Positions 9,499-41,688 of a stretch of 64,000 nt of DNA are shown here, one piece after another. A program made the translations under genes and the position numbers. The stretch is taken from assembly GCF_900142085.1 (NCBI RefSeq), contig NZ_FQZQ01000005.1, forward strand, positions 1 through 64,000, given 5' to 3'. Every line of letters starts with the position of its first letter. The first letter of the stretch is position 1. Origin of the DNA: Shimia gijangensis (GTDB lineage: Bacteria > Pseudomonadota > Alphaproteobacteria > Rhodobacterales > Rhodobacteraceae). The notes below the pieces were generated by a model. The model made no database searches. It worked only from the letters and a program-made list of their open reading frames with translations, and had not been told where the DNA came from.

Positions 9499-9502
9499 CA
9501 GA

Positions 9503-14076: not shown

Positions 14077-14092
14077 TTGAGCGTGCGCTCAG
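14077..14092. promoter_or_regulatory. TTGAGCG-type palindrome, TetR1/mttB1 promoter
   Basis: TTGAGCGTGCGCTCAG contains the palindrome TGAGCG-TG-CGCTCA (14078-14091), a version of the TTGAGCGCTCAA element with two extra central bases. It lies between the divergent BetI-like repressor and mttB1. BetI proteins are known to bind TTGA-CG-TCAA type palindromes. Confidence 0.65.
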
Positions 14093-14160
14093 TTAAATTT
14101 GACTAATCACTCAGTTTTCTGCTAAAGCACCTCCAAACGCCAAGTAACAGGACAAATGCC

Positions 14161-15729
14161 ATGACCTCTCGCCCTTCCAGAACCCGTCGCGCCGGTGGCC
14201 GTGCTGCACGCGTCGCGATGCGTGAAGATACCAGGGACGAAACACGCCAAGCGGTTCGCGCAGGTCTTGAGGGCGGAACATACAACCCGCTGAGCGATCA
14301 TGATCTGCGATCAATCCACAAAGCAGCACTGGATATTCTGGCGGATGTGGGCATTGGCGATGCCACAGACGAAGTAATTGAGCTGGCCACCGAACAGGGC
14401 TGTTTCGTGAACGCACACGGGCGGCTCAGCTTTCCTCATGCGCTGGTAGAGGACCTTCTCACCAAAGCTGCCCGCGAATACACGGTCTACAGCCGCGATC
14501 CGATGCATGCGGACGTGCATGTCGGAGGCAACAAGGTCAATTATTGCACAAGTGGCGAGGCTGTTTCGATCTTGGATTATGAATCCCGGAGCTATCGCCC
14601 CTCAACCCTAATCGACCTCTACGACACCGCGCGGGTTGTTGATGCCCTGCCCAACATTCACCAGTTCGGCCAGACCGTGGTTCCGACCGAGCTGGTTGAC
14701 CTTTATGAGCATGACATCAACGTGGTTTATGCGGTTTTGGCGGGTACGACCAAACCTGTCGAGCACACATTCAATACAGTCGAATCGATCCCTCACGCGC
14801 TTGAAATGTACGCTATGGTGGCCGGCGGCGAAGACAAATTCCGTGAGCGTCCCTTTGTCAGCTTCGGTGGCTGCCCGATCGTTTCGCCTTTGCGTTTCGC
14901 GCAGGAAAACTTGGATGTTCTGGTCACTACCAGTCGCCTCGGCCTTGTGAACGACATTGCAATCGCTCCTCAATCCGGGGCAACGGCCCCGTCTTTCCTC
15001 GCCGGTGCTCTTGTTCAGGTCACGGCTGAGGCTCTGGCCTGTCTTTGTGTGGTCAACATGGTCAACCCCGGCTGCCCAATGTCTTTTGCGGCCTGGCCCT
15101 TTGCGGTTGATCTGCGCACAGGTGCCTTTGCAGGCGGATCGGCAGAAGTCGCCGTGTCCATGGCCGCCGTTGCACAGATTGGTCGTTTTTACGACCTGCC
15201 GACAACCGTTGCAGCATCCATGTCAGACGCCAAAATGCCTGACGCGCAGATGGGTTATGAAAAGGGCATCACATCCGTGGTCGCAGGCCTTGCGGGGGCC
15301 AACCGTGTTCTAGAATCTGCGGGCATGATGGCCAGCCTGATGGGCTGCTCGTTCGAAGCTTTGGTGATCGACAATGACATGCTGGGCATGGCCCAACGGG
15401 TTGTGCGCGGCATTGAAGTCAGCGACGAAACCCTAAGCGTCGACACCATCAAAGCCGCTGTGTTGGGAGATGGGCATTATTTGGGGGCCGGTGACACATT
15501 GAAATCCATGAAAACTGAATACGTCTATCCAGCGACCGCAGATCGGTCCTCTCAACAGGTATGGATCGCAGAAGGCGCAAAAACCATGGATGAACGTGCC
15601 CACGAAGCCGCAGGAAAACTGCTGGCCGAACATTTCGTCAACGCCATCCCGGCAGATGTGGACAAAGCAATCCGGGAAAGGTTCCCGATCAAATTGCCAA
15701 AGAACCGGATGGCCCCGAGGGTTGCTTAA
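14161..15729 (+). CDS. MttB-family methylamine/betaine methyltransferase (mttB1)
   Basis: The 522-residue protein belongs to the trimethylamine:corrinoid methyltransferase superfamily and is expected to remove a methyl group from a quaternary amine. The frame has no in-frame stop, so it is a non-pyrrolysine member, like the glycine betaine enzyme MtgB. An arginine-rich tail (residues 3-20, RPSRTRRAGGRAAR) precedes the TIM-barrel region, as is common in Rhodobacterales copies. An AGGA site lies eight bases before the ATG. Its end overlaps the convergent mttB2 by four bases. No corrinoid protein is encoded nearby, so the methyl acceptor is unknown. Confidence 0.9.
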   Translation: MTSRPSRTRRAGGRAARVAMREDTRDETRQAVRAGLEGGTYNPLSDHDLRSIHKAALDILADVGIGDATDEVIELATEQGCFVNAHGRLSFPHALVEDLLTKAAREYTVYSRDPMHADVHVGGNKVNYCTSGEAVSILDYESRSYRPSTLIDLYDTARVVDALPNIHQFGQTVVPTELVDLYEHDINVVYAVLAGTTKPVEHTFNTVESIPHALEMYAMVAGGEDKFRERPFVSFGGCPIVSPLRFAQENLDVLVTTSRLGLVNDIAIAPQSGATAPSFLAGALVQVTAEALACLCVVNMVNPGCPMSFAAWPFAVDLRTGAFAGGSAEVAVSMAAVAQIGRFYDLPTTVAASMSDAKMPDAQMGYEKGITSVVAGLAGANRVLESAGMMASLMGCSFEALVIDNDMLGMAQRVVRGIEVSDETLSVDTIKAAVLGDGHYLGAGDTLKSMKTEYVYPATADRSSQQVWIAEGAKTMDERAHEAAGKLLAEHFVNAIPADVDKAIRERFPIKLPKNRMAPRVA

Positions 15730-17219
15730 CCCTCGCGGAACCGCGCCAAAACATCTTTCGCAACCTGCATCACGGCTTCGTCCGGAGCGGCGGGCGGCGG
15801 GGCTTTGCGGCGCTCGGCGAGATCCAGTGCAATTCGTTCAAACAGATCCTGATCTGGCAAGCCCCCATTGCTAAGAGGGATGTTCGGGCCAAGATAGCGC
15901 GAGTTCCAAACTTGCGTGCGGCAGTTATCAACCGTGTGCTGTTCTGCCAAATACTGTCCCTTGGGGCCAAGGCTATCGATCAGGTCCGTGCCAATCTGTT
16001 CATCGGTGACAGATACCCCTTCCCACATCTTGCGCAACATTCCGGCCTGATCATCGCTGAACAACAACGCCACTTCGGAAAACGTGAGCCCCTGATCCAG
16101 CGAACCGAGATAGTCGACGGTCGCGGGGCGGTGGTAAAAGATGTTCATGGTGCTGGCAGACAGCTCCCACACGGCATCCTGATTGAACCGACGCGCTACT
16201 GTGCATCCACCTGAGGCCGTCAGCGACGGAAACCCCAAGGAACGCCGCACTTGCGCCGCCGCCATGTCGCCCATCGACATCTGCGAGAAACTGCCAATCG
16301 CACCAGTGGCAGGCTCCATAAAGAAAACGTCTGACCCGCCCATGCAAAAGCTGCCCTCGACGGCCAGCTGCCCCAAAACGATGGCGGCAAAATCTGTCAT
16401 CAGACAATGCACCAGACAGCCGGCCAATGTGATTGGCGAAGAGGCACCACCAATAGAGAGCGTTCCAACGCCAACCGGCACCCCTGCCCGCACAGCTGAC
16501 AGAATCTGATCAATGTGGATTTGCGCAAAGCTCACCGGCAATGGCGTCACCAGATGAAAGAAGTACGGCTTGTCACGCAGCGCATCGGCACTGCCCCGCA
16601 CTGCGGTGGCCATCTCAATCACCGCATCAAGCGAAACAGGATACTCGCAAAGATACTCCAGAGGCTTGGTTGTGTTTTCCATCATGCAGAGGAATTCGTC
16701 GATTTCTCCATGGATGGTCGAATCTGCCACGTTTTTGACTGACACACAGATCATGTCGATGTTCGGTAGCCCGTCTGACAGACGGGTTATGGCGGCAAGG
16801 TCCTCGCGGGTCGAAGGCCGGGGTTCGCCGGTGGCATCATCATAAACACCAATGTTGGTCATGCCCGGCATGAAGATCGTGTTTTCGTTGTCAATCGTGA
16901 CCGGGTTTTCGCCGTTGCGATCATAAAGAACAGTTTTGCGCGCCACGGTTTCCAAAGCGCGCTGGGTCACAGCCTCGGGAATTTTCACGATCCCGTCGTC
17001 TCCCAACGTGCACCCAGCATCGCGTAACAGATCATCCGCCTCTGTACCCGGTTCGAACACAATCCCGGAACTCGCCATCAACGAAATCGCCGTGCCGATC
17101 ACCTTGGTCACTTCGGAATCACTTAACGGCCCGTAGGCAGGCGTCGCCCCAAAATGTCGGGTGCTGGGACGCACATTTTCCTGAGTTTCGGGTTGTTTCC
17201 GTGTACGACCGCGACGCAT
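15726..17219 (-). CDS. MttB-family methylamine/betaine methyltransferase (mttB2)
   Basis: Second MttB paralogue, 497 residues, also without an internal stop and so not pyrrolysine-containing. It begins MRRGRTRKQPETQ, a shorter basic tail than mttB1, followed by a typical GPLSDSEVTKVI entry to the barrel. AAAGGA lies six bases before the start. It is transcribed away from the ABC transporter genes, with a perfect TTGAGCGCTCAA palindrome in the shared promoter, so it is likely co-regulated with them. The low visible identity to mttB1 suggests a different substrate or a hetero-complex. Confidence 0.9.
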   Translation of the reverse strand: MRRGRTRKQPETQENVRPSTRHFGATPAYGPLSDSEVTKVIGTAISLMASSGIVFEPGTEADDLLRDAGCTLGDDGIVKIPEAVTQRALETVARKTVLYDRNGENPVTIDNENTIFMPGMTNIGVYDDATGEPRPSTREDLAAITRLSDGLPNIDMICVSVKNVADSTIHGEIDEFLCMMENTTKPLEYLCEYPVSLDAVIEMATAVRGSADALRDKPYFFHLVTPLPVSFAQIHIDQILSAVRAGVPVGVGTLSIGGASSPITLAGCLVHCLMTDFAAIVLGQLAVEGSFCMGGSDVFFMEPATGAIGSFSQMSMGDMAAAQVRRSLGFPSLTASGGCTVARRFNQDAVWELSASTMNIFYHRPATVDYLGSLDQGLTFSEVALLFSDDQAGMLRKMWEGVSVTDEQIGTDLIDSLGPKGQYLAEQHTVDNCRTQVWNSRYLGPNIPLSNGGLPDQDLFERIALDLAERRKAPPPAAPDEAVMQVAKDVLARFREG

Positions 17220-17297
17220 TGCAGTTCCTTTTATTTAGATTTCAAAGGGCTTTAACGGAAAATAGCAGCAAAATGGGTCTTGTCGCAAATAGTTTTA

Positions 17298-17309
17298 TTG
17301 AGCGCTCAA
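17298..17309. promoter_or_regulatory. TTGAGCGCTCAA palindrome, mttB2/ABC promoter
   Basis: Perfect 12-bp palindrome TTGAGCGCTCAA in the gap between mttB2 and the ABC permease, embedded in AT-rich flanks (TTTTA on the left, ATAAAA on the right) that nearly extend the symmetry. It probably serves as operator for one or both BetI-like TetR proteins. Confidence 0.75.
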
Positions 17310-17417
17310 ATAAAATTTGTTAGGACACACCCAAAGAAATGTGGCAGGAAAAGACTTGTGCAAAGCAATTTGCCATGCCTCGAATGAGAACTTGGTCCAC
17401 GAAACAAGGACACCGAA

Positions 17418-18284
17418 ATGGGAATGACACTCGACAAAGAGGCCCGACAGGGACTCACACTGCTCAGTCCAACAGCCCTTTACGCGTTGTTGATGCTGGC
17501 AGCCCCTTTGGCGATGGTGGTGACATTTAGCTTCTGGACACAGAACTATCTGGACATCGAGACTACACTGACGCTGGACAACTACCGCGAAGCCTGGAGC
17601 AAGCCGATCTATCAGGTTTTGATGATTCGGTCGCTGAAGATTTCGCTGCTGGTCACTGTTGTGACGGTCGTTCTGGCCTTTCCCATCGCCTATTTCCTGT
17701 CGTTTCACGTCAAAAACCGCAAAGCGCTGTGGCTGTTCCTGATCACTGTACCTTTCTGGACCAGCTACCTGCTGCGCGTCTTCCTTTGGAAAGTGATCCT
17801 TGGTTATAACGGCGTTTTGAACACGGCCCTGATGGAACTCGGTCTGATTGCCGAGCCGCTGACCTTTATCCTGTACAACGCGAATGCTGTGGTTTTGACG
17901 CTGGCCCACGCATGGGCTCCGTTTGCGATCCTGCCGATTTTCGTCGCGTTGGAAAAGATTGACCGATCGCTTCTGGAAGCCGCCGAAGATCTGGGCGACG
18001 GTCCTGTGCGCCGGTTCTTCCGCATCACGTTGCCTCTGGCTATGCCAGGCGTGATTGCGTCAACTCTGATCGTGCTGATCCCGACTGTGGGCGACTTTAT
18101 TACCCCTAAACTCGTCGGAGGTACCGACGGATTGATGATTGCGAACATGATCCAGATTCAGTTTGGCAAAGCCAATAACGCGCCTCTTGGGGCGGCCTTG
18201 GCAGTGTCATCAATGATGATCGTCGCCGTTATCAGCTTGATAATTTATGCCGCAGGTAAGAAATTTGGAGGGAGAGTGCAATGA
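17418..18284 (+). CDS. ABC transporter permease, PotB-like
   Basis: Inner-membrane permease of 288 residues with about six hydrophobic segments and the EAA loop near residue 190 (EAAEDLGDGPVRRFFRITLPLAMPG), which contacts the ATPase. It belongs to the spermidine/putrescine-type family. It is first in an operon of permease, permease, ATPase and methyltransferase, and its stop overlaps the next start (ATGA). Given the neighbours, the cargo is probably a methylated amine or betaine rather than a plain polyamine. Confidence 0.92.
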   Translation: MGMTLDKEARQGLTLLSPTALYALLMLAAPLAMVVTFSFWTQNYLDIETTLTLDNYREAWSKPIYQVLMIRSLKISLLVTVVTVVLAFPIAYFLSFHVKNRKALWLFLITVPFWTSYLLRVFLWKVILGYNGVLNTALMELGLIAEPLTFILYNANAVVLTLAHAWAPFAILPIFVALEKIDRSLLEAAEDLGDGPVRRFFRITLPLAMPGVIASTLIVLIPTVGDFITPKLVGGTDGLMIANMIQIQFGKANNAPLGAALAVSSMMIVAVISLIIYAAGKKFGGRVQ

Positions 18285-19111
18285 GTTCGCTTAGCAAATA
18301 CCTCTCAGGCAAATGGCTGACCGTCTACGCGGTAGTCTACATGTTATTCTTGTACGCACCGGTTTTCTTGCTACCAATGTTTGCCTTTAACGACGCAACC
18401 ATCATTTCGTTTCCACTTCAGGGCTTTACAACCAAATGGTTCGACGTGCTTTGGGAGACCCAGGCCCTTCATGGGGCCGTGCGAAACAGCGCAACGGTGG
18501 CCATCTCAACCGCTGTGATCAGCACCATTCTTGGGGCTTGCGCCGCGCGGGCTTCTGCACGCTACCGCTTTCCGGGCAAGCGCCCGGTTATGGGGTTCAT
18601 TATGCTGCCGCTGGTGCTGCCCGAGATTATTGTGGCCGTATCGCTGCTGGTCCTGTTGATGCAGCTCGGCATGTCCCTGTCACTCTGGACGGTAGTCGCC
18701 GGTCACGTGCTGATCTGCACGCCATTTTCCATCGCCATTCTGAGTTCAGCTTTTCAGGGCCTCGACAACAGTCTGGAAGAGGCCTCTTTCGACCTGGGAG
18801 AAAGCCGCTGGGGCACGTTCCGGCGCGTCATCTTGCCTTTGGTCATGCCCGGCGTGGTGTCCAGCCTGTTGATCTGCTTCACCATCTCGTTGGATGAATT
18901 CATCATCGCGTTTTTCCTGACCGGCACGGATGTCACCCTGCCCGTCTATATCTGGAGCCAGTTGCGCTTCCCGACAAAACTGCCCTCGGTCATGGCCCTG
19001 GGCACCATCTTGCTGGCTCTGTCCGTGGTTCTTCTGATCCTCGCGGAATGGTTCCGCCGTCGTGCGGCTAAGAAACAGGGCATTGAGGCTTCGGCCGGAG
19101 GATTTATGTAA
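18281..19111 (+). CDS. ABC transporter permease, PotC-like
   Basis: Second permease of the same importer, 276 residues, with about six membrane segments and an EAA loop near residue 166 (EEASFDLGESRWGTFRRVILPL). It pairs with the PotB-like protein to form the membrane channel. Its stop shares one base with the ATPase start (TAATG), so the operon is translated as a coupled unit. Confidence 0.92.
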   Translation: MSSLSKYLSGKWLTVYAVVYMLFLYAPVFLLPMFAFNDATIISFPLQGFTTKWFDVLWETQALHGAVRNSATVAISTAVISTILGACAARASARYRFPGKRPVMGFIMLPLVLPEIIVAVSLLVLLMQLGMSLSLWTVVAGHVLICTPFSIAILSSAFQGLDNSLEEASFDLGESRWGTFRRVILPLVMPGVVSSLLICFTISLDEFIIAFFLTGTDVTLPVYIWSQLRFPTKLPSVMALGTILLALSVVLLILAEWFRRRAAKKQGIEASAGGFM

Positions 19112-20214
19112 TGGCGGCTATCGACGCAAATGACATCATCGTTCTAAGCGATGTCACCAAAACTTTCGGCACGTTTCAGGCGCTGAAAGGGATCAATGCG
19201 GGCATCCGCGAGGGCGAATTCTTTTCTCTGTTGGGCCCGTCTGGCTGTGGCAAAACCACATTGCTGCGCATGATTGCCGGTTTTGATGAACCAACCACCG
19301 GCACCATCGACATTAATGGCAAACCAATGGCCGGGATTTCAGCCAACAAGCGCCCCACCAACATGGTGTTCCAAAGCTATGCAATTTTCCCGCATCTCAG
19401 CGTTGCGGAAAATGTTGGCTATGGACTAAAAACCCAAAAAATGCCCAAGAAAGAGATCGCTACGGAGGTCGACAAAGCCCTCGACATGGTTGATCTGCAC
19501 GGGCTGGGCGACCGCGGCGCGCATGAATTGTCGGGCGGTCAGCGTCAGCGTGTGGCGCTTGCGCGGGCACTGGTGATGCGACCCAAAGTGATCTTGCTGG
19601 ACGAGCCTCTTTCGGCGCTGGATAAGAAACTGCGCGACCAGATGCAGGTAGAACTGCGCTCTTTGCAGCAAACCCTTGGCATTACTTTCATTCTGGTGAC
19701 ACACGATCAGGAAGAGGCGCTGATCATGTCAGACAGAATTGCGGTGATGTTTGAAGGTGAGATCGCTCAACTGGCATCCCCCGAAGAGCTGTATCGCCGC
19801 CCGCGAACCAAACGGGTTGCCTCTTTCATTGGCGTGATGAACTTTCTCGATGCCAAACTTGGGTCGCAAGACGAAACCACATTGACCATCAACATTGATG
19901 CTTTGGGCCCCGTTCAGGTCCCTATCGACATCGCGCCGGCCGGTCTCAATCCTGCAACGATTGATGCGGTTGGAATCCGCCCCGAAATGCTGACTGTCCT
20001 TGGTGATGGAAATGACAATGCCGAGCACAAAGTCGAAGGCGAGGTCACTGGAACGGCGTATTACGGCGATATGACTTATTATACGGTGCAATTGCCCGGC
20101 AGCGGCGAACCTGTCACTATATCCATGCGCAACACGGCAGGCCGTTCGGTTCTGCCTGCTGGCAGCAAGGTCATGGTCAGATGGGGGGCGGAATCCGTCG
20201 TGCTTTTCGAATAG
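19111..20214 (+). CDS. ABC transporter ATP-binding protein, PotA-like
   Basis: The 367-residue ATPase powers the importer. It has Walker A LGPSGCGKTTLLR near residue 43, the signature LSGGQRQRVALARAL near 138, Walker B VILLDEPLSALD near 158 and the switch histidine in LVTHDQEEA. A C-terminal TOBE domain (from about residue 285) is as in PotA and other MOI-type ATPases. Confidence 0.94.
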   Translation: MAAIDANDIIVLSDVTKTFGTFQALKGINAGIREGEFFSLLGPSGCGKTTLLRMIAGFDEPTTGTIDINGKPMAGISANKRPTNMVFQSYAIFPHLSVAENVGYGLKTQKMPKKEIATEVDKALDMVDLHGLGDRGAHELSGGQRQRVALARALVMRPKVILLDEPLSALDKKLRDQMQVELRSLQQTLGITFILVTHDQEEALIMSDRIAVMFEGEIAQLASPEELYRRPRTKRVASFIGVMNFLDAKLGSQDETTLTINIDALGPVQVPIDIAPAGLNPATIDAVGIRPEMLTVLGDGNDNAEHKVEGEVTGTAYYGDMTYYTVQLPGSGEPVTISMRNTAGRSVLPAGSKVMVRWGAESVVLFE

Positions 20215-20255
20215 CACATCCGCAGGCCGCCAAGCGATGATCGGGAGGACACCGC

Positions 20256-21038
20256 ATGAGCGACAATGAACTGCACTACGACAATCAGGTTATCCACTTT
20301 CTTGAGGACATGTGGGGAGACGGGTTTCTGTCTCCCGGCGGAGCAGAAGAAGCGACGCTTGTAGTCGAAGGGTTGGACCTTCGCGGTAAAACCGTTCTCG
20401 ACATAGGAAGCGGTTCGGGTGCAATCGCCGTGCTTTTGGCGGGAACGCTTGGGGCAAAGAAAGTGATCGGCATTGACGTTGAGGAGCCGGTCGTCAATGA
20501 GGCCCGCCAACGAGCAGCCGCGGCGGGGCTTTCAGACAGGATCGATATCCAGCTAGTCGAACCCGGCCCCTTCCCGTTTCCCGAAAACAGCTTTGACATC
20601 GTCTACTCAAAAGACTCAATTATCCATATCCCGGACAAAGAAACTCTGAGCCGTGATGTTTATCGCGTGTTGCGGCCCGGCGGGTGGTTTGCGGCGTCAG
20701 ACTGGCTGATTTCGCACGACAACACCCCGTCACCCGAAATGCAGGACTATATCACGGCAGAGGATCTGGATTTCGCCATGGCCTCGCCTGGTCGGTACAC
20801 CCGCGCCTTGGCAGATGTCGGGTTTTCCCAAATCTCGTTGCGCAATCGCAACCCATGGTACCGGGAAGTCGCGGCAGGTGAACTAAACCGGCTAACGGGC
20901 CCTGAACGATCCAAACTGGAACAAGCCCATGGTGAAACCTTTATTGCAGACCAGGTTTCGACTTGGAGCAAAATGATGCCGGTGCTCAAGTCTGGCGAAC
21001 ACTGTCCACATCATATTCGGGGTCAAAAGCCGAGTTAA
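20256..21038 (+). CDS. SAM-dependent N-methyltransferase, phosphoethanolamine methyltransferase-like
   Basis: The 260-residue class I methyltransferase has the SAM motif VLDIGSGSGAIA near residue 49 and post-I acidic IGIDVEE near 72. The YSKDSIIHIPDKE segment near 117 is reminiscent of phosphoethanolamine N-methyltransferases. It is fourth in the ABC operon (GGAGG site upstream) and is followed by a terminator. A methylating enzyme within a demethylation island is unexpected; it might run on imported amines or make a compatible solute. The substrate is unknown. Confidence 0.8.
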   Translation: MSDNELHYDNQVIHFLEDMWGDGFLSPGGAEEATLVVEGLDLRGKTVLDIGSGSGAIAVLLAGTLGAKKVIGIDVEEPVVNEARQRAAAAGLSDRIDIQLVEPGPFPFPENSFDIVYSKDSIIHIPDKETLSRDVYRVLRPGGWFAASDWLISHDNTPSPEMQDYITAEDLDFAMASPGRYTRALADVGFSQISLRNRNPWYREVAAGELNRLTGPERSKLEQAHGETFIADQVSTWSKMMPVLKSGEHCPHHIRGQKPS

Positions 21039-21060
21039 TCGGAAAATCCCGATCTTTTTT
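21038..21060 (+). terminator. Terminator of the ABC/methyltransferase operon
   Basis: A short stem ATCGG (21038-21042) with CCGAT (21049-21053) is followed by CTTTTTT on the plus strand, starting in the methyltransferase stop codon. The stem is only five base pairs, so termination may be partial. Confidence 0.55.
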
Positions 21061-21089
21061 CCAACTTGCAAACGATGCAGATTAATGAC

Positions 21090-21119
21090 CAACCATCGAT
21101 CAGCGGCGATCGATGGTTG
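21090..21119. repeat. Perfect 12-bp inverted repeat
   Basis: CAACCATCGATC at 21090-21101 and its exact reverse complement at 21108-21119 flank the loop AGCGGC. It lies between the convergent methyltransferase and cupin genes, 40 bp past the cupin stop. Neither side has a T run, so it is not a standard intrinsic terminator. It could stabilise a 3' end or bind a protein. Confidence 0.7.
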
Positions 21120-21159
21120 ATGTGTGGTTTCGGCATTGAAACTATGTATTTAAGCTAAA

Positions 21160-21519
21160 CTAAGTTGAGGTATTGATCACGAATAGTTTGCGCATATGCT
21201 CGTGAATGACCCACTCCCCTTTCCAACCTTGTGGCAGGATCAACAGGTCACCCGGTCCGATCTCTCGGGTTCCGCTACCGTCAGCATTGGTCACTGAAGC
21301 GCGCCCAGAAATGATATGGCAATATTCGCCGGCAGATGTTCGGTCGGCCGTGAAATGACCGGGCGTGCACTCCCAAACGCCAATAGACGTGTTCTCATCT
21401 GGTGAAGTCCACAGAACAACGGCAGCTTCTTCTTGTCCTTCGGTGAGAGTCGTAGGTTTCGGTGCAAAGGCACTCAGCGGTGTATCTGCAAGGTTTTCGA
21501 AGGTTTTCAGATCAATCAA
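21160..21519 (-). CDS. Small cupin-domain protein
   Basis: A single-domain cupin of about 119 residues. The beta-barrel motifs resemble the DUF861/cupin_3 group (GVWECTPGHF, then GEYCHIISGRASVT and GPGDLLILPQGWKGEWVI). No ATG fits the frame. A TTG at 21519 (reading IDLKTFENL) with AAGAGA upstream is the most likely start, and another TTG lies at 21549. It follows the binding-protein gene after a strong terminator, so expression would need readthrough or its own promoter. Function unknown. Confidence 0.75.
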   Translation of the reverse strand: MIDLKTFENLADTPLSAFAPKPTTLTEGQEEAAVVLWTSPDENTSIGVWECTPGHFTADRTSAGEYCHIISGRASVTNADGSGTREIGPGDLLILPQGWKGEWVIHEHMRKLFVINTST

Positions 21520-21555
21520 TGGAATTCTCTTTCTTGGGGCTAAGGGCAAACAAGC

Positions 21556-21584: not shown

Positions 21585-21608
21585 CCTGATTTCTCTCCGT
21601 GAGTGGAT

Positions 21609-22755: not shown

Positions 22756-22784
22756 CTTGACTCAAGGTTTAATTGAGCGCTCAA
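22756..22784. promoter_or_regulatory. TTGAGCGCTCAA palindrome plus second TTGA/TCAA site
   Basis: A perfect TTGAGCGCTCAA (22773-22784) follows a shorter palindrome, CTTGA-C-TCAAG (22756-22766), in the promoter shared by the binding protein and the TMADH-like gene. The pair may bind two repressor dimers. Confidence 0.75.
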
Positions 22785-22822
22785 ATAATTTTAAGTCGAA
22801 AATGATGTGAAAATAGGCAAAA

Positions 22823-24865
22823 ATGCGCGATCCAAGACACGATGTACTCTTTGAACCCATAAAGATTGGTCCAGTAGAAACCAAAAACCGATTTTATCAG
22901 GTCCCCCATTGCACCGGAATGGGCTGGCGACGACCACAAACACTGGCGGCAATGCGGGGTGTGAAGGCCGAAGGAGGCTGGGGGGTGGTCAACACTGAGT
23001 TCTGTTCGATCCACCCGACGTCCGACAACGACTATTACCCTTATGCGGCTTTGTGGGATCAGGATGACATCCGTGCCAACCGGCTCATGACCGATGCGGT
23101 ACATGAACATGACGCACTGGCCGGGGTGGAACTGTGGATCGGCGGCGGGATGGTCGCGAACCTCGGCACCCGCCTGCCTGCTTACGGGCTGCGCAATCGG
23201 CCTCAGACGGACAGCAGCGTTTTAAATCCATTTCAGGCGCGCAAGGTCGACAAGCAGGATATCCGCGATATCCGTCGCTGGCACCGGGATGCTGCTTTGC
23301 GGGCGGGCGAGGCGGGTTTTGACATTGTCTATGTCTATGCCACCCACGGCTATCTGATTTCCGAGTTTCTTGACCCGACAATCAACACCCGCACAGACGA
23401 ATACGGCGGCTCGCTGGAAAACCGGGTTCGGATCGTTCGTGAGTTGATCGAAGAAACCCGCGAAGCAGTCGGTCATAAGGCGGCAGTGGCCACCCGGTTC
23501 AGTGTGGCGTTGAATGACCCCGAAACCTTCGATGCCTTTGGTTTGCTGGCTGATCTGCCCGACCTCTGGGATTTGACAGTTCCGGACTATGGCGTTGAAA
23601 TGGGGGCCAGCCGGTTCGTCAAAGAAGCCTCCTTCGTGGACAGCATCGCTGCAGCAAAGTCACTGACGTCCAAACCGGTTGTGGCCGTTGGCCGGTTCAC
23701 CTCGCCCGACACAATGGCGCGGGTGATCAAAGATGGATCGCAAGATCTGATCGGCGCGGCACGACCGTCGATTGCTGATCCATTTTTGCCCAAGAAAATT
23801 GAAGAAGGTCGTTCAGAAGACATCCGCGAATGTATTGGTTGCAACGTGTGTTATGCCCATGACTCTCTCGGTGTACCGATCCGGTGCACTCAAAACCCGA
23901 CCATGGGCGAAGAATGGAAACTGGGCTGGCATCCGGATCGCGCGGGCACCAGTCCGCGCAAAGACGAAACTGTTCTGGTTGTTGGCGCTGGTCCGGCAGG
24001 CCTTGAGGCAGCGCGGGTACTGGGAGAACGGGGGCACAACGTTATGCTGGCCGAAGCAACCCGCGATCTTGGCGGACGGGTCAGCCGCGAAAGCCGCCTG
24101 CCTGGTATGGCCGAACTGGCCCGTGTTCGTGATTGGCGCGTCGGCCAGATTGAAAAATTGGACAACATCGAAATCTTCCGCGAAAGCCGCATGACACCAC
24201 AGGACGTGCTGGAATTGGGTGTCGATCACGTGGTGCTGGCCACCGGGTCCACGTGGTCGACCGATACCGTTGGGCGTCATTCGGACACCGGACTTCGGCA
24301 CGAGGCACCGGACATGGTTCTGGGTGCAGAAACCGTGTTGGACGGGGATCCCTTCGACGCCAATCATGTGGTGATTTACGATGACGATCACTATTACCTC
24401 GGATCAGTCATGGCGCTGGAGTTACGTAGGAAAGGTCATCAAGTGACTTTGGTCACCCCTGCCGGACGCCCCTGTGACTGGGGGCAATACACCACCGAAG
24501 TTTACAGTTCGAACGCGGCCCTGATTGAAGCGGGTGTTAAGATTGTGACCAACAAAACCATTGTGGCCGCCAACCCGGGCAGTGCCCGCCTGTCTTGTAT
24601 GTTCTCAGAACAGGAAAGCGATCTGGCCTGCGATGTCATTGTGCCTTTGACTCGCCGGTTGCCCGTGTCTGATCTCTATGACGGGTTGATGGCTATCGAA
24701 GACAGGGTAAAGGCTGTGGGCATTCAGTCGGTAACGCGCATCGGAGACGCCGAAGCCCCCGGCATTGTCGCCGCAGCTGTGCACAGCGGTTACCGTGTGG
24801 CAATGGACTTGGGTGAGGATGTTGATATCGCGAAAAAATATGGCCGGCGCGAACACACTGTCTAA
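22823..24865 (+). CDS. Trimethylamine/dimethylamine dehydrogenase-like flavoprotein
   Basis: The 680-residue homologue of TMADH has an N-terminal FMN barrel, a [4Fe-4S] cluster site and a C-terminal FAD/ADP-binding domain. Cys30 in QVPHCTGMG matches the residue that forms the 6-S-cysteinyl-FMN bond in TMADH. Y172 and H175 (VYATHGY) match its active-site Tyr and His, and cluster cysteines are C337, C340, C343 and C355. The substrate bowl differs: residue 60 is Phe, and D347 stands where TMADH has a Trp four residues after the third cysteine. It is therefore probably a demethylase for a different N-methyl amine, perhaps dimethylglycine-like. It shares a BetI-type operator with the binding protein. 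Confidence 0.88.
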   Translation: MRDPRHDVLFEPIKIGPVETKNRFYQVPHCTGMGWRRPQTLAAMRGVKAEGGWGVVNTEFCSIHPTSDNDYYPYAALWDQDDIRANRLMTDAVHEHDALAGVELWIGGGMVANLGTRLPAYGLRNRPQTDSSVLNPFQARKVDKQDIRDIRRWHRDAALRAGEAGFDIVYVYATHGYLISEFLDPTINTRTDEYGGSLENRVRIVRELIEETREAVGHKAAVATRFSVALNDPETFDAFGLLADLPDLWDLTVPDYGVEMGASRFVKEASFVDSIAAAKSLTSKPVVAVGRFTSPDTMARVIKDGSQDLIGAARPSIADPFLPKKIEEGRSEDIRECIGCNVCYAHDSLGVPIRCTQNPTMGEEWKLGWHPDRAGTSPRKDETVLVVGAGPAGLEAARVLGERGHNVMLAEATRDLGGRVSRESRLPGMAELARVRDWRVGQIEKLDNIEIFRESRMTPQDVLELGVDHVVLATGSTWSTDTVGRHSDTGLRHEAPDMVLGAETVLDGDPFDANHVVIYDDDHYYLGSVMALELRRKGHQVTLVTPAGRPCDWGQYTTEVYSSNAALIEAGVKIVTNKTIVAANPGSARLSCMFSEQESDLACDVIVPLTRRLPVSDLYDGLMAIEDRVKAVGIQSVTRIGDAEAPGIVAAAVHSGYRVAMDLGEDVDIAKKYGRREHTV

Positions 24866-24915
24866 ATTGTTGAGAGCGAGGCATTGCTGTCTGAGCATGC
24901 CCCTCGTGAACCAAA

Positions 24916-24953
24916 AAGAAGCCCCCTTGCGACATCGCGAGGGGGCTTCTTTG
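24916..24953. terminator. Bidirectional terminator
   Basis: A perfect 13-bp stem (24916-24928 with 24941-24953) with a 12-base loop lies between the convergent TMADH-like and aminotransferase genes. T-rich tracts occur on both sides (TTTGTTTG on plus, TTTTTGG on minus), so it can serve both. Confidence 0.9.
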
Positions 24954-24957
24954 TTTG

Positions 24958-26340
24958 TTATGCTGCGTTCAAATTGTCTTGAACTTCCTGAAGCGCGTCT
25001 TCGAGAATGTCGAACATCTCGTCAATTTGTTCGATGGTGATGATCAAAGGTGGCGAGAATACCGCCATGTTGATCAGCGGACGGACCAGAAGGCCGCGTG
25101 CTTCGCAGGCTTCGTCGATCTGGCTGCCCAGTTTTTTCTCGGCCTCGAGATCTTCCGCCTTACCTTCGATACAGCCCAAAAGACCCATACCGCGTGCATC
25201 GCCGACAATCTTGAATTTCATCAGATCGCGCAGCCGCTTCTGGAAATGCGGCGTGACAGCGCGCACGTGTTCCAGAACGCCTTCATTCTCAAAGATTTCG
25301 ATGTTTTTCAGAGCAGCCGCACAGCTCACAGGATGCGCCGAATATGTGTATCCATTGGTAAAACTGGACGGCTCATCGCTGTCGCTCATCATTTCCATAA
25401 CGCGGTCTGAGACGATACAGGCGCCAAGCGGCAGGTAGCCCGAGGTCAGGCCCTTGGCGCTGGTGATGAAATCAGGCTGGATGTCAAAAAGCTCTTCCGA
25501 GGCAAACCAGTAACCCAGACGGCCGAAACCGGTCACAACTTCGTCCGAGATGTAGAAAATGTCATTGGCGCGACAAATCTCGAGCGTGCGTTTGTGATAC
25601 CCCGGGGCCGGAACAATAACCCCTCCTGATGACAGGATCGGTTCGGCGATGAAGGCACCAATCTTGTCAGCACCAATTTCGGCAATGGCCTTTTCAAGAT
25701 CGGCAACTTTTTCGTCGCAGAACTCTTCAACGCTTTGGCCTTCAGCGCGGCGATATGGGTTCACATCTGGCAGGAAGTGCACAAGACGCGTTTCAAAATC
25801 AAAGTGGCTTTTGTCGCGTTCTTTGCCGGTCACCGAATGGGCCAGATAGGTCGATCCGTGATAGCCCTTTTCGCGCGCGATAATCATCTTCTTTTCGGGC
25901 AGGCCGCGGCGGTTGTTGCAGTACTGCATAGTGCGTAGCGCTGTATCCACTGCGGTCGAGCCACCTGTGGTAAAGAACACATTGTTCAGATCACCCGGCG
26001 CCATATCGGCGATTTTCTTGGCAAGAATTGCCGACGGTTCCGTGGCCGAAGTAAAAGGCGACGTATAGGGCAGCTTCATCACCTGATCATAGATCGCTTC
26101 GGCCATATCTTTGCGGCCATAGCCAATTTGCGTGCACCACATACCGCCCGGTCCATCGATAAACCGTTTGCCCGTGCTGTCGTACATATAAATGCCTTCG
26201 GCGGTGTCCACGAGCATATTGTCATAGCCACGCCACGCATCCATCGCATGCCAGGGGTGGATTTGGTGCATCCGGTCCCACTCGATCAGGGTCTCGTTGC
26301 TCGGGGTGTTAGAGCCCGCTACTTTGGTCATCTCAGTCAT
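24958..26340 (-). CDS. Class III aminotransferase, polyamine:pyruvate type
   Basis: The 460-residue PLP enzyme resembles omega-aminotransferases that act on putrescine or spermidine (SpuC-like). The PLP lysine is in TSAKGLTSGYLPLG near residue 300, and TGGSTAVDTALR near 120 binds cofactor phosphate. It is last of a minus-strand operon with a GcvT-like protein and two FAD proteins. The PotABCD-like transporter nearby suggests a substrate with a primary amine as well as methylated nitrogen. AGGAGA precedes the start. Confidence 0.88.
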   Translation of the reverse strand: MTEMTKVAGSNTPSNETLIEWDRMHQIHPWHAMDAWRGYDNMLVDTAEGIYMYDSTGKRFIDGPGGMWCTQIGYGRKDMAEAIYDQVMKLPYTSPFTSATEPSAILAKKIADMAPGDLNNVFFTTGGSTAVDTALRTMQYCNNRRGLPEKKMIIAREKGYHGSTYLAHSVTGKERDKSHFDFETRLVHFLPDVNPYRRAEGQSVEEFCDEKVADLEKAIAEIGADKIGAFIAEPILSSGGVIVPAPGYHKRTLEICRANDIFYISDEVVTGFGRLGYWFASEELFDIQPDFITSAKGLTSGYLPLGACIVSDRVMEMMSDSDEPSSFTNGYTYSAHPVSCAAALKNIEIFENEGVLEHVRAVTPHFQKRLRDLMKFKIVGDARGMGLLGCIEGKAEDLEAEKKLGSQIDEACEARGLLVRPLINMAVFSPPLIITIEQIDEMFDILEDALQEVQDNLNAA

Positions 26341-26358
26341 GTCCTGTTCTCCTATGTA

Positions 26359-27552
26359 TCAGAATGGGTTCGGCGGAGTTGCCCGCGACCGTGCATTCTG
26401 GAAAAATGGTTTGTCGACAAAGGTCAGAGGTACAATGCGCTTGTCCCATTGCCCTTCTTCGCTTACGTAAATCTCGACCCAAAGGTCATCCGTGATTGCC
26501 TTGCCGTACGGCGCTTTTAACTCGGCCAGTGCGATGTTTTGCTTCATTGTCGGCGACCAGATTCCCGACGTGACATGGCCGACTTCTCTCTTTTTCCGAT
26601 GATAGATCAACGATCCGTCGGCCGGCTTAAAGCCTCCAATATCAATCTTGGCCAGATGATAGCGAACACCGTCCTGTTGTTGCTTCAACAAGGCACGACG
26701 GCCATTGAAATGGCCCTTTTCAAAGTGCACCAGTTTATCAAAACCCAGTTCCAGGGGGCTTCGCCCACGATTTAGGCGCATCGCTGCGTGCACCGGCTGG
26801 AAATCCACCCCAGCGGCAATGAACCCGGCCTCAATTCTCACCATGTTCAGCGCCTCGGCACCAATGGCGCGCAGGCCCCAATGCCCCCCGGCGGCCCACA
26901 AGCGATCCCACAATGCGCCAATGTCATTCCATGCGGTCCAAAGCTCGTAGCCAAGATCACCAGTAAAGCCCGTGCGTGACACCCAAAGACCGGGCTCAAT
27001 CTCGCGCAAATCAAACGGCTTCATGTCCTCAACCGCATCAAGGCCCGCGTCCTTGAGCAAAGAAAAGGTGGTCGGTCCCTGAAGCGAAACACCCGCAACA
27101 GTATGAGAGTCATCAATGATTTCAGCGTCAAAGCCCCAGGCCGTATCCAAAAGCCAGCTGTACATTGTTTCCTGACAACACAGCATGAATTCGGTTTCCG
27201 AGTAACGGAACACGGTGCCATCATCGATCAGCATGCCCTCTTCATCACACCACATCGCATAGCCCACACGACCATCACGCAACTTGGACACATCCCGCGT
27301 AACAAGCCGGTTCACAACCTTCAGCGCATCTGGCCCTTTGATGCGATATTTGTGCATTGGGCAAATATCAAACAGCGTCGACTGGTTGCGGATCGCAAAG
27401 TATTCAAACTCAACCGTATCCAGCACCAATGGCGAAATGAAACCCGCCCAGTTTGCCCAGCTTTTGGCTGTGCTGATCGCTTCCATGCGATCATAAAGTG
27501 GCGTTGGAATGACGCCGATCGGCACGGCCTGTTTTGTTGCAGCCTTGGTCAT
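26359..27552 (-). CDS. GcvT-like aminomethyltransferase-family protein
   Basis: The 397-residue protein has the folate-binding GcvT fold, with SLQGPTTFSLLKD near 180 and the signature RTGFTGDLGYELW near 215, and a C-terminal barrel domain. Such proteins pass a methyl or methylene group to tetrahydrofolate (GcvT, DmdA, sarcosine oxidase tail). Its start overlaps the preceding FAD protein's stop as ATGA. It could be the folate acceptor for one-carbon units released by the flavoproteins; this is inferred from context. Confidence 0.82.
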   Translation of the reverse strand: MTKAATKQAVPIGVIPTPLYDRMEAISTAKSWANWAGFISPLVLDTVEFEYFAIRNQSTLFDICPMHKYRIKGPDALKVVNRLVTRDVSKLRDGRVGYAMWCDEEGMLIDDGTVFRYSETEFMLCCQETMYSWLLDTAWGFDAEIIDDSHTVAGVSLQGPTTFSLLKDAGLDAVEDMKPFDLREIEPGLWVSRTGFTGDLGYELWTAWNDIGALWDRLWAAGGHWGLRAIGAEALNMVRIEAGFIAAGVDFQPVHAAMRLNRGRSPLELGFDKLVHFEKGHFNGRRALLKQQQDGVRYHLAKIDIGGFKPADGSLIYHRKKREVGHVTSGIWSPTMKQNIALAELKAPYGKAITDDLWVEIYVSEEGQWDKRIVPLTFVDKPFFQNARSRATPPNPF

Positions 27553-29117
27553 GACAGCACCCCGTCTTTCAAAAGTTGCATTGCACTGTTGCGCCCCGGG
27601 ACGCCGGTGACATCGCCACCCGGATGGGCAGCCGCGCCACAAAGGTAAAGTCCGCCTACGGCAAAGCGATAGTGCGCAAGGCCATTCACCGGGCGCACCG
27701 TCAAAATCTGGTCCACACCCATTTCAGCATGATGCCAATGGCCTCCGGGGGCGCCAGTCAGATCTTCGATGTCCGAAGGTGTCAGCAGTTGTGCTTCTTC
27801 GATCGTGCTGCTCAGCCCCGGCATATGCGCCTCTAGCTGCGCGACAACTGTATCGATGACTTGCTGACGATTGGCATCGTTCCATCCGCCGGTCGGCGTG
27901 TGTGGGACGTGTTGAATAACCGCCGACAGGATATGCCGCCCGCCCGAGGCCAGCTCGGGATCGCTTAGCGTTGGGATCACAGCTTCGACCACAGGCGCGG
28001 TGGGAAGTTCATTGTATTTTACCGGATTGAACGAACGTTCGACAGTCTCGGCTGACGGCGCGATCAACAATCGGCCTGCCATTTGCGCGGCACTCAGACC
28101 TTCGATCTGCGGCGCAGATTTCAAAACGAGGTTCAGTTTGGCAACCGTGCCTTTGCAGCGCATGTTCTTGATGCGCCGCGCTGCTTCGACGTCAAAATGC
28201 TCAATGCCCGCCATCTTCATGGTCGCCATGGGGGCTGCCGAGGACAGAACCGCACGGGTTGCAATCTCGGTGCCGTCTTCCAGCACAATGCCGGTGACCT
28301 TGTCGGCCTCGACATTTACGCGGGCTACTCCGCTACCAGTGCGCAGATCGCACCCGGCCTTGGTTGCCGCGGCTTCAAATGCACGGGCAACAGCGCCCAT
28401 GCCGCCCTTGGGCATACGCACTTCGCCGCCCGTTCCCAAGCGATACATCAGATTGAACACGGTGCCCGGCGACCGTGGCCCCACATAGTTGCCACGCACC
28501 GCATCGGCGCAGATCATCCCAGCCAGCGGTCCGTCCGGCATTTCATCCAGAACCAGATCGTAAACATTGGTCAGGACCACACGCAAGAATTCACGCATGT
28601 CCTTTTTGCCCATCATTTTGACGTTCAGGCCCAGCTTGGCCAATCCGGCCAATTCACCCAAAGCGGCCATCGACGTTAGGCCACCATCCAGCTTGGGAGG
28701 CGATTTGGTCGACAATTGCCCCAACAACCCGGCGAATTTTCGCAGCTGCGCGGTTTGCTTGGCATAAGCATTGACGTCGGGGTGCGTGGTACCATCGGCA
28801 AAGCGCACCATAGCGCCTTCAACCACAACGTGGTTACCGTCCGCAGACAAAGATGTGGTTGGCAAAGGCGATCCCTTCAGCAGATCACCAAGACCCAGTT
28901 CTTTAGCCACTTTTGGGTTCAGATTGTGCAACAGATGCGCGATTTGCGGGGCCGAGACACCCTCGCCCATAGCAACGTTACGCGCCATGCCACCCATTGC
29001 GTCCGATTTCTCGATCACACAGACCGATTTGCCCTTTTTCGCAAGCGTTGCCGCGGCAGCGAGGCCATTGTGACCGCCACCGATCACCACGACGTCATAT
29101 GTTGATGAATTTGTCAT
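27549..29117 (-). CDS. Phytoene-dehydrogenase-like FAD oxidoreductase (first copy)
   Basis: The 522-residue flavoprotein has the N-terminal dinucleotide motif VVVIGGGHNGLAAAATLAKKG and acidic VIEKSD, and the C-terminal FAD contact GLYLCGAAAHPGGDVTGVPG. It belongs to the CrtI/amine-oxidoreductase family. No carotenoid genes are nearby, so an amine or amino-acid oxidation role is more likely. It lies 11 bp after its paralogue in the same operon; the two may form a heterodimer. Confidence 0.85.
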   Translation of the reverse strand: MTNSSTYDVVVIGGGHNGLAAAATLAKKGKSVCVIEKSDAMGGMARNVAMGEGVSAPQIAHLLHNLNPKVAKELGLGDLLKGSPLPTTSLSADGNHVVVEGAMVRFADGTTHPDVNAYAKQTAQLRKFAGLLGQLSTKSPPKLDGGLTSMAALGELAGLAKLGLNVKMMGKKDMREFLRVVLTNVYDLVLDEMPDGPLAGMICADAVRGNYVGPRSPGTVFNLMYRLGTGGEVRMPKGGMGAVARAFEAAATKAGCDLRTGSGVARVNVEADKVTGIVLEDGTEIATRAVLSSAAPMATMKMAGIEHFDVEAARRIKNMRCKGTVAKLNLVLKSAPQIEGLSAAQMAGRLLIAPSAETVERSFNPVKYNELPTAPVVEAVIPTLSDPELASGGRHILSAVIQHVPHTPTGGWNDANRQQVIDTVVAQLEAHMPGLSSTIEEAQLLTPSDIEDLTGAPGGHWHHAEMGVDQILTVRPVNGLAHYRFAVGGLYLCGAAAHPGGDVTGVPGRNSAMQLLKDGVLS

Positions 29118-29128
29118 GATCGCCCCCC

Positions 29129-30766
29129 TTATTCGTTATGGCTGGGCATTGCGCTGCCCTTGCCAATGTTGCGCAGAATTTCACGGGCTGCGTTTGCGCC
29201 CGGAGCCGCCATCACACCGCCGCCCGGGTGCGCCGAGGATCCAACCAGATACATGCCGTCAATCGGCGTGTCGTATTGTGCGTAGCCCGGTACCGGACGG
29301 TTGAACAACAACTGGTCAAAGGTCAGCTCACCCTGGAAGATGTTGCCTTCGGTCAGACCAACTTCGTTTTCGATATCCCAAGGGGTCCGAATTTCCGCAT
29401 GCAGCATTTTTTCGCGGATATCGGGCATTGCCACTTCGATCTTATCCAGAACGCAATCGGCAAATTGCTTGCGGGTGTCATCGTTCCAGTTTTCACCGGA
29501 GCGCACCCCGTTCACCTCAAGATCATAAGGCGCATATTGTACAAACACCGTCATCATATGTTTGCCTGGAGGCGCCAGCGTCGGGTCAATCTGGCTGGGG
29601 ATCAGCATATCGAAATATGGATCCTTGGACCAATGGCCGTCTTTCCAATCATCGTAGGCCCGCTCGAGTTCATTGAGCGAGGTGGAGCAATGCATGTCTC
29701 CACGCAAGAAAGACGCGCCTTCTGGTGCTGCCGGGAACTCTGGCAGAGCATCCAGAGCGATGTTCAACTTGCCAGAGGAGCCGCGAATTTTGAAGCGTTT
29801 GACCGCCTTTGTGAAATCCTCGGGCAGGTGTTTTTCTTCGGTGTGGTTCAGGAACGTGCGCTTTACATCCATGTTCGAAGCCACAATGGGCGCCTCGTAG
29901 GTGTCGCCATTATCCAGCGCGACGCCGGTGACTTTACCGTCTTTCACAAGGAACTGTTCTACACCGGATCCGGTGACGATGGTGCCTCCTGCCTCTTCGA
30001 AACAGGCGCCCAACGCGTTTGAAATCGCCCCCATGCCGCCGCGCGCAAACCCCCACGCGCCAATCGCGCCATCAACGTCACCCATATAGTGATGCAACAG
30101 AACATAGGCTGTGCCGGGCGAATAGACACCAAGTCCGGTGCCGATGATCCCAGCCCCGGCAATATGCGCCTTGATGAGGTCACTTTCGAAATGTTCGTCC
30201 AGAAAATCGCCAATCGACATCGTCCAGAACCGTAGCGTCTCGCCAAGTTCTTTGGCGCCAAGGCCGTGGGCTTTTTTCACAAGGAACAGCAATTCGTTGA
30301 TGTCTCGCGGCTTCAACGAGGCCGGATCAGGTGCGTTGCGCAGAAGGAACGGGCGGATAAACCGACATTGCCGGATGACGGTTTGGCTAAAACGCTCATA
30401 GGCATCCACATCTGCCGGGCTGTGGCGGGCCATTTCGCGACGCACCGCGTCATGATCCGAATAAGAGGCAAAATAGTCGCCATCCGGTGTAAAGGACGCC
30501 CCGCCTTCGTAAGGAATGACCTGCAGGCCAAAGCGCGGCAGTTCCAGATCCCGCACAATCTCGCGACGCAGCAACGAACAGACATACGAGCAGTTCGAAT
30601 AGGTCCAGCCATCATGCAAAGACCGGCTGACAGCGGCCCCGCCGATCCAGTCGTTCTTTTCGACCACCGCTACTTTTAACCCGGCTTTCGCCAGATAGCA
30701 GGCTGTGGTCAGACCGTTGTGGCCCGCCCCCGCAATAATCGCATCGTATTTGTCGTGTTGGCCCAT
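29129..30766 (-). CDS. Phytoene-dehydrogenase-like FAD oxidoreductase (second copy)
   Basis: The 545-residue paralogue of the preceding gene has AIIAGAGHNGLTTACYLAKAG at residue 9 and a C-terminal GMYLVGSSAHPGGGVMAAPG. It leads the operon of four genes. The frame extends upstream to 30973 into the TetR gene, but the ATG at 30766 has AGGAGA five bases before it. The promoter it shares with the divergent TetR carries a TTGAGCGCTTAA site. Confidence 0.85.
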   Translation of the reverse strand: MGQHDKYDAIIAGAGHNGLTTACYLAKAGLKVAVVEKNDWIGGAAVSRSLHDGWTYSNCSYVCSLLRREIVRDLELPRFGLQVIPYEGGASFTPDGDYFASYSDHDAVRREMARHSPADVDAYERFSQTVIRQCRFIRPFLLRNAPDPASLKPRDINELLFLVKKAHGLGAKELGETLRFWTMSIGDFLDEHFESDLIKAHIAGAGIIGTGLGVYSPGTAYVLLHHYMGDVDGAIGAWGFARGGMGAISNALGACFEEAGGTIVTGSGVEQFLVKDGKVTGVALDNGDTYEAPIVASNMDVKRTFLNHTEEKHLPEDFTKAVKRFKIRGSSGKLNIALDALPEFPAAPEGASFLRGDMHCSTSLNELERAYDDWKDGHWSKDPYFDMLIPSQIDPTLAPPGKHMMTVFVQYAPYDLEVNGVRSGENWNDDTRKQFADCVLDKIEVAMPDIREKMLHAEIRTPWDIENEVGLTEGNIFQGELTFDQLLFNRPVPGYAQYDTPIDGMYLVGSSAHPGGGVMAAPGANAAREILRNIGKGSAMPSHNE

Positions 30767-30825
30767 GAGTCTCTCCTGTTGGGTTAAACTGTACGAGAAG
30801 TCCGACTGGGGGTAAATATATTTTT

Positions 30826-30837
30826 TTGAGCGCTTAA
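30826..30837. promoter_or_regulatory. TTGAGCGCTTAA palindrome variant
   Basis: A single-mismatch version of the TTGAGCGCTCAA element lies between the FAD-protein operon and the divergent BetI-like TetR. Long T runs flank it on both sides. It is probably the autoregulatory operator of that TetR. Confidence 0.65.
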
Positions 30838-41678: not shown

Positions 41679-41688
41679 CGTTGTCTCC

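Follow-up and report, generated by a model that had tools for sequence, protein, structure and literature searches.

The first 64,000 nucleotides of contig NZ_FQZQ01000005.1 of Shimia gijangensis (NCBI RefSeq assembly GCF_900142085.1; this whole stretch is called the window below) contain an island of predicted methylated-amine genes, two genes for TetR-type repressors, TetR1 and TetR2, and a short palindrome, TTGAGCGCTCAA, which recurs between divergent genes of the island. A preliminary description of this DNA had proposed that this one palindrome marks four divergent promoters, and that about 14 genes form a single regulon read by both paralogous repressors. The locus thus raises the question of which protein reads the palindrome, and whether all four promoters belong to one circuit. 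We consider it likely, from sequence comparison, that TetR2 binds a 22-bp operator (class A) as the repressor of a 13-gene regulon, and that TetR1 is separate, with a tandem operator of its own (class B).

A 22-bp palindromic element in the window and the genome

Perfect copies of TTGAGCGCTCAA were found where they had been reported, at 17298-17309 and 22773-22784, as was a core with one mismatch, TTGAGCGCTTAA, at 30826-30837. All three class A cores lie between divergent genes, namely mttB2 and the first permease gene, the genes for the binding protein and the flavoprotein dehydrogenase, and the FAD2 operon and tetR2. The view that one palindrome marks four divergent promoters thus holds for three of them, the fourth carrying an element of the other class. 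Across the genome (4,094,570 bases, 78 contigs) the core is not frequent at random sites: it occurs perfectly at two places, both in the island, and with one mismatch at 14 places (reversed control, 1). The 22-mer TTTNNTTGAGCGCTCAANNAAA occurs six times when up to three mismatches are allowed (reversed control, 2), the three window sites standing alone at 0-1 mismatch and the three others having three mismatches each.

A symmetric class A matrix of 36 columns was built from 50 distinct sites of other genomes, the genome of S. gijangensis being excluded and one input site (L093:1264) lying outside a TetR2 promoter; the centre of this matrix gives the operator consensus TTTATTTGAGCGCTCAAATAAA. 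The three window sites scored 47.8, 45.8 and 42.2 against it. The next-best place in the window, at the TetR1 promoter, scored 15.1, the best of 60 order-2 Markov windows 20.9, and the 13 one-mismatch places of the genome other than that at 30826 no more than 2.1. The class A signal resides in near-perfect copies and their A/T-rich flanks, not in the bare 12-mer, and TTGAGCGCTCAA is the core of a longer, 22-bp palindromic element, the predicted operator.

Class A operators accompany TetR2 across Rhodobacteraceae

Homologues of TetR2 (E<=1e-45) were found in 27 of 394 sampled Rhodobacteraceae genomes (about 7%), that of S. gijangensis included. The core, at no more than one mismatch, stands upstream of TetR2 in 24 of these 27 loci (23 of 26 when the window is excluded), and it persists in homologues of only 45-47% identity. 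When all 394 genomes were searched, the 22-mer at no more than one mismatch was present in 24 of the 27 TetR2 genomes as against one of the 367 without a TetR2 homologue, and it is because of this distribution that TetR2 very probably reads the class A operator. The sole genome with the 22-mer at that level and no TetR2 homologue (G416) is 72% complete; on its 13-kb contig, which breaks off inside the dehydrogenase gene, two class A sites accompany the genes for the Rieske protein, the transporter, the binding protein and the dehydrogenase.

Perfect 12-mers were found at 33 places in 19 of 29 genomes searched (reversed control, one place), and 31 of these fall within TetR2-type clusters, as judged from position and fetched context. 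The other two (G073, L141; G220, L142) were taken as chance occurrences, with matrix scores of only 8.4 and 8.6, the second lying inside an open reading frame (ORF). Long stretches of the cluster were retrieved from 11 other TetR2 genomes. All 11 have a site at TetR2, 10 have one before the transporter or its leading Rieske gene (between mttB2 and the permease gene in G085), and in six a site adjoins the gene for the binding protein or that for the dehydrogenase. Genome G220 keeps all three class A sites, with the identical mismatch at FAD2/TetR2. A further class A site near TetR2, TTGAGCGCTCAC, lies upstream of another Rieske-type gene in two genomes (L123:6996 and L126:5974).

A tandem element at the TetR1 promoter and two repressor clades

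The fourth site, TTGAGCGTGCGCTCAG at 14077-14092, had been taken for the same palindrome with a two-base central insertion. It is instead an inverted repeat of 16 bp, which exceeds the 12-mer by four bases, and is one half of a tandem pair, the second unit of which, TTGACTAATCACTCAG at 14099-14114, had escaped the preliminary description and starts 22 bp after the start of the first. This class B element consists of units of the types TTGAG-N6-CTCA and TTGAC-N6-CTCA with starts 21-22 bp apart. The tandem pair was found in all 11 TetR1-clade promoters (the window, G220, G129 and eight loci of L036-L046), the 12-mer at no more than one mismatch in none of them, and class B occurs once in the genome of S. 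gijangensis (control, 0). From the conserved TTGAC in TetR1-clade promoters, unit 2 possibly overlies a -35 element. In G129, which is not among the 27 genomes with TetR2, TetR1 adjoins the FAD2 operon, and a genome-wide search found no perfect 12-mer and no 22-mer at two mismatches. Comparison of these promoters suggests for 14077-14092 an operator class of its own, associated with TetR1.

The operators, their conservation and their association with repressor clades are properties of the sequences themselves. In a tree of 56 BetI-like protein rows, the TetR1 clade (11 rows, 100/99) has class B throughout and the TetR2 clade (30 rows, 100/98) has class A in 27, while the 15 other BetI-like rows have neither operator class. 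The figure of 27 comprises 25 rows found by script and two (L085, L100) found by separate promoter inspection, the script's over-long start having hidden their promoters; L140_8834 was omitted as a duplicate of L096, and L033 of G129 was used for the locus that is also L037. An alignment of 25 of the 30 TetR2 rows with five of the 11 TetR1 rows showed seven consistently differing columns, among them A58/L and Y61/H, positions 58 and 61 falling where we presume the recognition helix to be. Clusters from Rhizobiaceae (L144-L146) and Fuscovulum (L147) combine homologues of FAD2, FAD1 and GcvT with a BetI-like regulator that belongs to neither clade, and the matrix gave no class A site of at least 22 bits there.

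With the class B pair in 11 of 11 TetR1 promoters and the 12-mer at up to one mismatch in none, two circuits are favoured over one regulon, and the island probably holds one of TetR2 with about 13 genes and one of TetR1 with mttB1. A multi-gene regulon is thus supported as first proposed, while its reading by two paralogues is not, since operator type follows clade (27/30 versus 11/11) and TetR1/mttB1 is probably separate. That TetR1 and TetR2 would nonetheless both bind all four places is improbable, though it fares best among the alternatives: both proteins are BetI-like, they are 32-35% identical and have similar half-sites, the class A matrix gives 15.1 and 24.9 on the TetR1 promoters of the window and G129, and both circuits lie in one island, where they probably serve one pathway. 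It is opposed, however, by the tracking of operator class with repressor clade, by G129, which has TetR1 yet none of the class A elements sought, by the consistent differences at residues 58 and 61 between the aligned clade rows, and by the different length and tandem arrangement of class B.

Proposed mechanism and the points that bear on it

In the mechanism that we propose, the binding, repression, operon limits, ligand and pathway of which we infer, TetR2 at three operators would block six divergent transcription units with 13 genes, as counted from gene order: tetR2 itself; FAD2-FAD1-gcvT-aminotransferase; binding protein-cupin; the flavoprotein dehydrogenase; mttB2; and permease-permease-ATPase-methyltransferase, the last being of the S-adenosylmethionine (SAM) type. 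A quaternary amine or its demethylated product would release TetR2. TetR1 would be a diverged sister repressor with its own tandem operator, which here probably controls only itself and mttB1. An operator-like site is conserved in the repressor's own promoter in 24 of 27 TetR2 loci and 11 of 11 TetR1 rows, as for an autoregulated TetR-type repressor.

Several observations weigh against this scheme. With up to three mismatches, the bare 12-mer shows no enrichment in the window (20 places, against 33 expected from shuffled sequence), and a scan for sigma-70-type promoters found none over the operators, so that any overlap of operators with promoters is hypothetical. At up to two mismatches the 22-mer occurs in 43 genomes, comprising 26 TetR2 genomes, G416 and 16 others (reversed control, five genomes). 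The near-perfect core is missing from three of the 27 TetR2 promoters (L093, L101 and L102, in G062, G315 and G371), where the matrix gave weak scores of 24.9 bits for G062 and 24.3 bits for G315, and no match for G371. G062 and G315 were not counted as class A because 24.9 is likewise the score of unit 2 of the class B pair in G129, and at that level the matrix cannot separate decayed class A from class B. The Fisher p of 5e-34 for the association of the 22-mer with TetR2 overstates the evidence because the genomes are related by descent and hence not independent, and the tree includes some nearly identical rows (L038, L039). Since the class B pattern was drawn up with these promoters already in view, its 11 of 11 is partly circular, but the absence of class A is not. 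Finally, cross-binding is possible because the TetR1 promoter of G220 contains CTGATCGCTCAA, two mismatches off class A.

TetR2 might also read the operator and yet activate, or switch direction with its ligand, at some promoters. We regard this as unlikely, slightly more so than joint reading by both repressors, since most TetR proteins of this type repress and there is one symmetric site per divergon here. In its favour, BetI2 of Ruegeria pomeroyi is reported to regulate its two divergent units differently when choline is present (PMC12442346; this and the other reports are cited from the parts of their text that were available).

If TetR2 does act as the class A repressor, the work supplies a predicted operator, together with its regulator, for a so far uncharacterised pathway of methylated amines in about 7% of sampled Rhodobacteraceae (27/394). 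Because the 22-mer is nearly absent without TetR2 (1/367), it could be used to find further genes of the pathway, even distant ones. The island would also offer a compact case of sister repressors side by side with apparently separate operators.

TetR1 and TetR2 in relation to BetI

The resemblance to a BetI-type operator noted earlier was borne out, the TTGA-N4-TCAA frame matching the box ATTGACGCGTCAAT that is bound by R. pomeroyi BetI1 (PMC12442346). The repressors themselves carry the BetI-type C-terminal domain PF13977 (64.9 bits for TetR1 and 56.2 for TetR2, against 27) and fall below both BetI cut-offs, with 104.3 and 116.9 against 201.3 (TIGR03384) and 97.5 and 116.6 against 118 (NF001978). 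Because both miss the curated cut-off, and two BetI above it are encoded elsewhere in the genome, TetR1 and TetR2 are classed by their profile scores as BetI-like repressors, not BetI proper. The two BetI genes above the cut-off (G000:C42:12580-13113 and 3832-4386) resemble the two-BetI arrangement of R. pomeroyi. At one of these loci a box, ATTGACTCGTCAAT, precedes the matched stretch by about 47 bp, and the other shows none of this frame; the genome thus appears to hold three related repressors (TetR1, TetR2 and BetI), each with its own box. The published BetI1-type operator TTGACGCGTCAA was not found at up to one mismatch around TetR1 or TetR2 (L166, L163). There is likewise no link to betBA, betC or betT among the divergent neighbours, which are mttB1 and FAD2, or among the scanned island genes, which belong to other families, the xanthine-dehydrogenase-like and LysR-like neighbours being unscanned. 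The closest solved sequences to TetR2 are those of TtgR, at about 50 bits; this likeness was dropped as a ligand clue, as such a score says nothing on the ligand of TetR2.

It could be envisaged that the palindrome is read by another regulator, for example a true BetI, with TetR2 a mere neighbour. The frame shared with the published BetI1 box (PMC12442346) and the two BetI above cut-off would allow this, but class A tracks TetR2 across genomes and the BetI loci carry either a separate box or nothing of this frame, which makes such a reader very unlikely. A chance or structural palindrome with no regulatory role would agree with the lack of enrichment of the bare 12-mer at three mismatches, but the genome-wide and cross-genome results and the conservation with TetR2 leave it hardly any probability.

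Rieske oxygenase and mttB2 at the transporter operator

In relatives, the class A site on the transporter side stands in front of a gene for a Rieske oxygenase (PF00355 and PF00848). Rieske homologues (E<=1e-60) were found in 17 of the 29 genomes searched; 13 of these are at least 59% identical, the query's own genome included, and for each of the 13 the matrix recognises a site within about 100 bp on the upstream side of the match, two of these sites lying far from tetR2 (325 kb in G004, 46 kb in G024). The other four (50-52%; G073, G319, G129 and G315) have no adjoining 22-mer at two mismatches, G129 alone having also been checked with the matrix. MttB2 (E<=1e-100) occurs in three of the 29 genomes, S. 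gijangensis (G000), G220 and G085, and a Rieske homologue at E<=1e-60 is absent from all three, weaker Rieske-type genes not having been sought. The combination of mttB2 and a class A site is also seen at L035, a locus from a metagenome-assembled genome (MAG), and a single TetR2 subclade (99/89) unites the window, G220, L035 and G085.

This distribution suggests a displacement, in which the ancestral operator drove an O2-dependent Rieske demethylase, the Rieske gene was lost, and the cobalamin-type mttB2 was placed at the kept operator in this lineage. We give this a little less than an even chance and advance it tentatively because 9 of the 27 TetR2 genomes have neither Rieske nor MttB2 at these thresholds, so that loss without replacement is also common. 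If true, the first demethylation step would have passed from oxygen-dependent to oxygen-independent with its regulation unchanged, and the island would possibly also represent a non-homologous enzyme swap under conserved regulation.

Genes of the island and the predicted pathway

Predicted operators and genes of the methylated-amine island, with positions in the window
Feature	Position	Strand	Remark
Class B operator unit 1 (predicted)	14077..14092	+	TetR1 / mttB1 promoter
Class B operator unit 2 (predicted), TTGACTAATCACTCAG	14099..14114	+	start 22 bp past unit 1; TetR1 / mttB1 promoter
Class A operator (predicted)	17293..17314	.	perfect core 17298-17309; mttB2 / transporter divergent promoter; kept in G220, G085, L035
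Class A operator (predicted)	22768..22789	.	perfect core 22773-22784; binding protein / flavoprotein dehydrogenase divergent promoter; kept in G220
Class A operator (predicted), 22 bp	30821..30842	.	core 30826-30837 TTGAGCGCTTAA; FAD2 operon / TetR2 divergent promoter
TetR1, BetI-like repressor	13433..14035	-	PF13977 and PF00440; predicted class B reader
mttB1, MttB-family methyltransferase	14161..15729	+	PF06253, 348.1 bits (against 25); predicted TetR1 circuit
mttB2, MttB-family methyltransferase	15726..17219	-	PF06253, 176.3 bits (against 25); predicted TetR2 regulon
ABC permease 1, polyamine type	17418..18284	+	PF00528
ABC permease 2	18281..19111	+	ORF; Parasedimentitalea homologue annotated ABC permease
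ABC transporter ATPase	19111..20214	+	ORF; Parasedimentitalea homologue annotated ABC ATP-binding protein
SAM-type methyltransferase	20256..21038	+	PF08241
Cupin	21160..21549	-	PF05899; downstream of binding-protein gene
Solute-binding protein, PotD-like	21609..22673	-	PF13416
Histamine/trimethylamine-dehydrogenase-like flavoprotein	22823..24865	+	PF00724
Class III aminotransferase	24958..26340	-	last gene of FAD2 operon
GcvT-like aminomethyltransferase	26359..27564	-	PF01571
FAD1, flavoprotein distantly CrtO-like	27549..29117	-	below cut-off
FAD2, flavoprotein distantly CrtO/CrtI-like	29129..30766	-	below cut-offs; first gene of operon
TetR2, BetI-like repressor	30912..31559	+	PF13977 and PF00440; predicted class A reader

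The closest solved relatives of the flavoprotein dehydrogenase are histamine and trimethylamine dehydrogenases, those of MttB2 are trimethylamine and glycine betaine methyltransferases, and that of the Rieske protein of the relatives is carnitine monooxygenase. Such likenesses point to a methylated-amine substrate without naming which. Because the set comprises an MttB or Rieske demethylase, a dehydrogenase-like flavoprotein, flavoenzymes with a GcvT-like protein, a class III aminotransferase and a polyamine-type transporter, the genes would fit stepwise N-demethylation followed by transamination. MttB1 (397.7) and MttB2 (208.6) both score below the cut-off of 525 for the pyrrolysine-type MttB (TIGR02369), and no in-frame TAG for pyrrolysine was found, both ORFs being open under table 11. 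A suspected in-frame TAG in mttB2 of G220 turned out to be the normal stop, two codons before the stretch ends.

A single PF02607 (B12-binding_2) match was found in the genome (G000:C60:19900-20121), in a 259-aa open frame whose product perhaps acts as a corrinoid protein common to the MttB enzymes. The SAM-dependent methyltransferase gene at 20256-21038, which stands in an otherwise catabolic operon, recurs in many mapped clusters. Directly beside TetR1, and in the same direction, lies a set of genes at 8608-13287 that looks by eye like xanthine dehydrogenase.

A second methylated-amine-type cluster at 36926-46540 contains two flavoenzymes of the old yellow enzyme (OYE) type, as judged from BLAST similarity, a fatty-acid-desaturase-type protein and a P450, together with a third gene of the MttB family (41689-43281; PF06253, 712 bits) and a TetR-like gene (43365-43976). 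The matrix scan found no class A site in this cluster, and homologues of its OYE-type and TetR-like genes lie side by side in Shinella (L145). In three MAGs labelled Deltaproteobacteria, Proteobacteria and SAR324 (L049, L056 and L059), mttB1 stands beside aminotransferase, dehydrogenase, binding-protein and transporter genes; no homologues of FAD1, FAD2 or GcvT were found at 1e-12 in the fetched stretches.

Comparison with known systems

TTGAGCGCTCAA was not found in the open-licence papers searched, and no paper on a TetR1/TetR2 regulon was recognised among the best-ranked titles and abstract starts, subscription papers being outside the scope of both searches. TmaR and TmoR have been reported for trimethylamine (PMC13390433). 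MtgB, MtgC and MtgD are reported to serve glycine betaine demethylation in R. pomeroyi (PMC12478193); MtgB and MtgC are, like the enzymes here, Pfam MTTB methyltransferases in a roseobacter, and the PF02607 corrinoid-type protein of S. gijangensis adds to the likeness, while the available part of that report describes no BetI-like operator.

A near counterpart is BetI with its operator, as in BetI1 of R. pomeroyi, which shares with the repressors and class A sites here a TetR fold with BetI-type C-terminal domain, a 12-bp core with TTGA and TCAA arms four bases apart, and a tie to methylated-amine catabolism (PMC12442346). The two boxes differ at the centre, which is CGCG in BetI1 and GCGC in class A, and TetR2 differs from BetI in the cluster of transporter, methyltransferase and flavoenzyme genes that it is predicted to control, one BetI locus of S. 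gijangensis having a separate box. BetI1 and BetI2 together offer another parallel: they too are two paralogous BetI-type repressors that share a catabolic cluster but differ in their operators, of which one is a double palindrome (PMC12442346). While BetI1 and BetI2 split the choline-O-sulfate and choline steps, the genes here are different ones, and whereas BetI2 binds two overlapping palindromes, the class B units at the TetR1 promoter are spaced.

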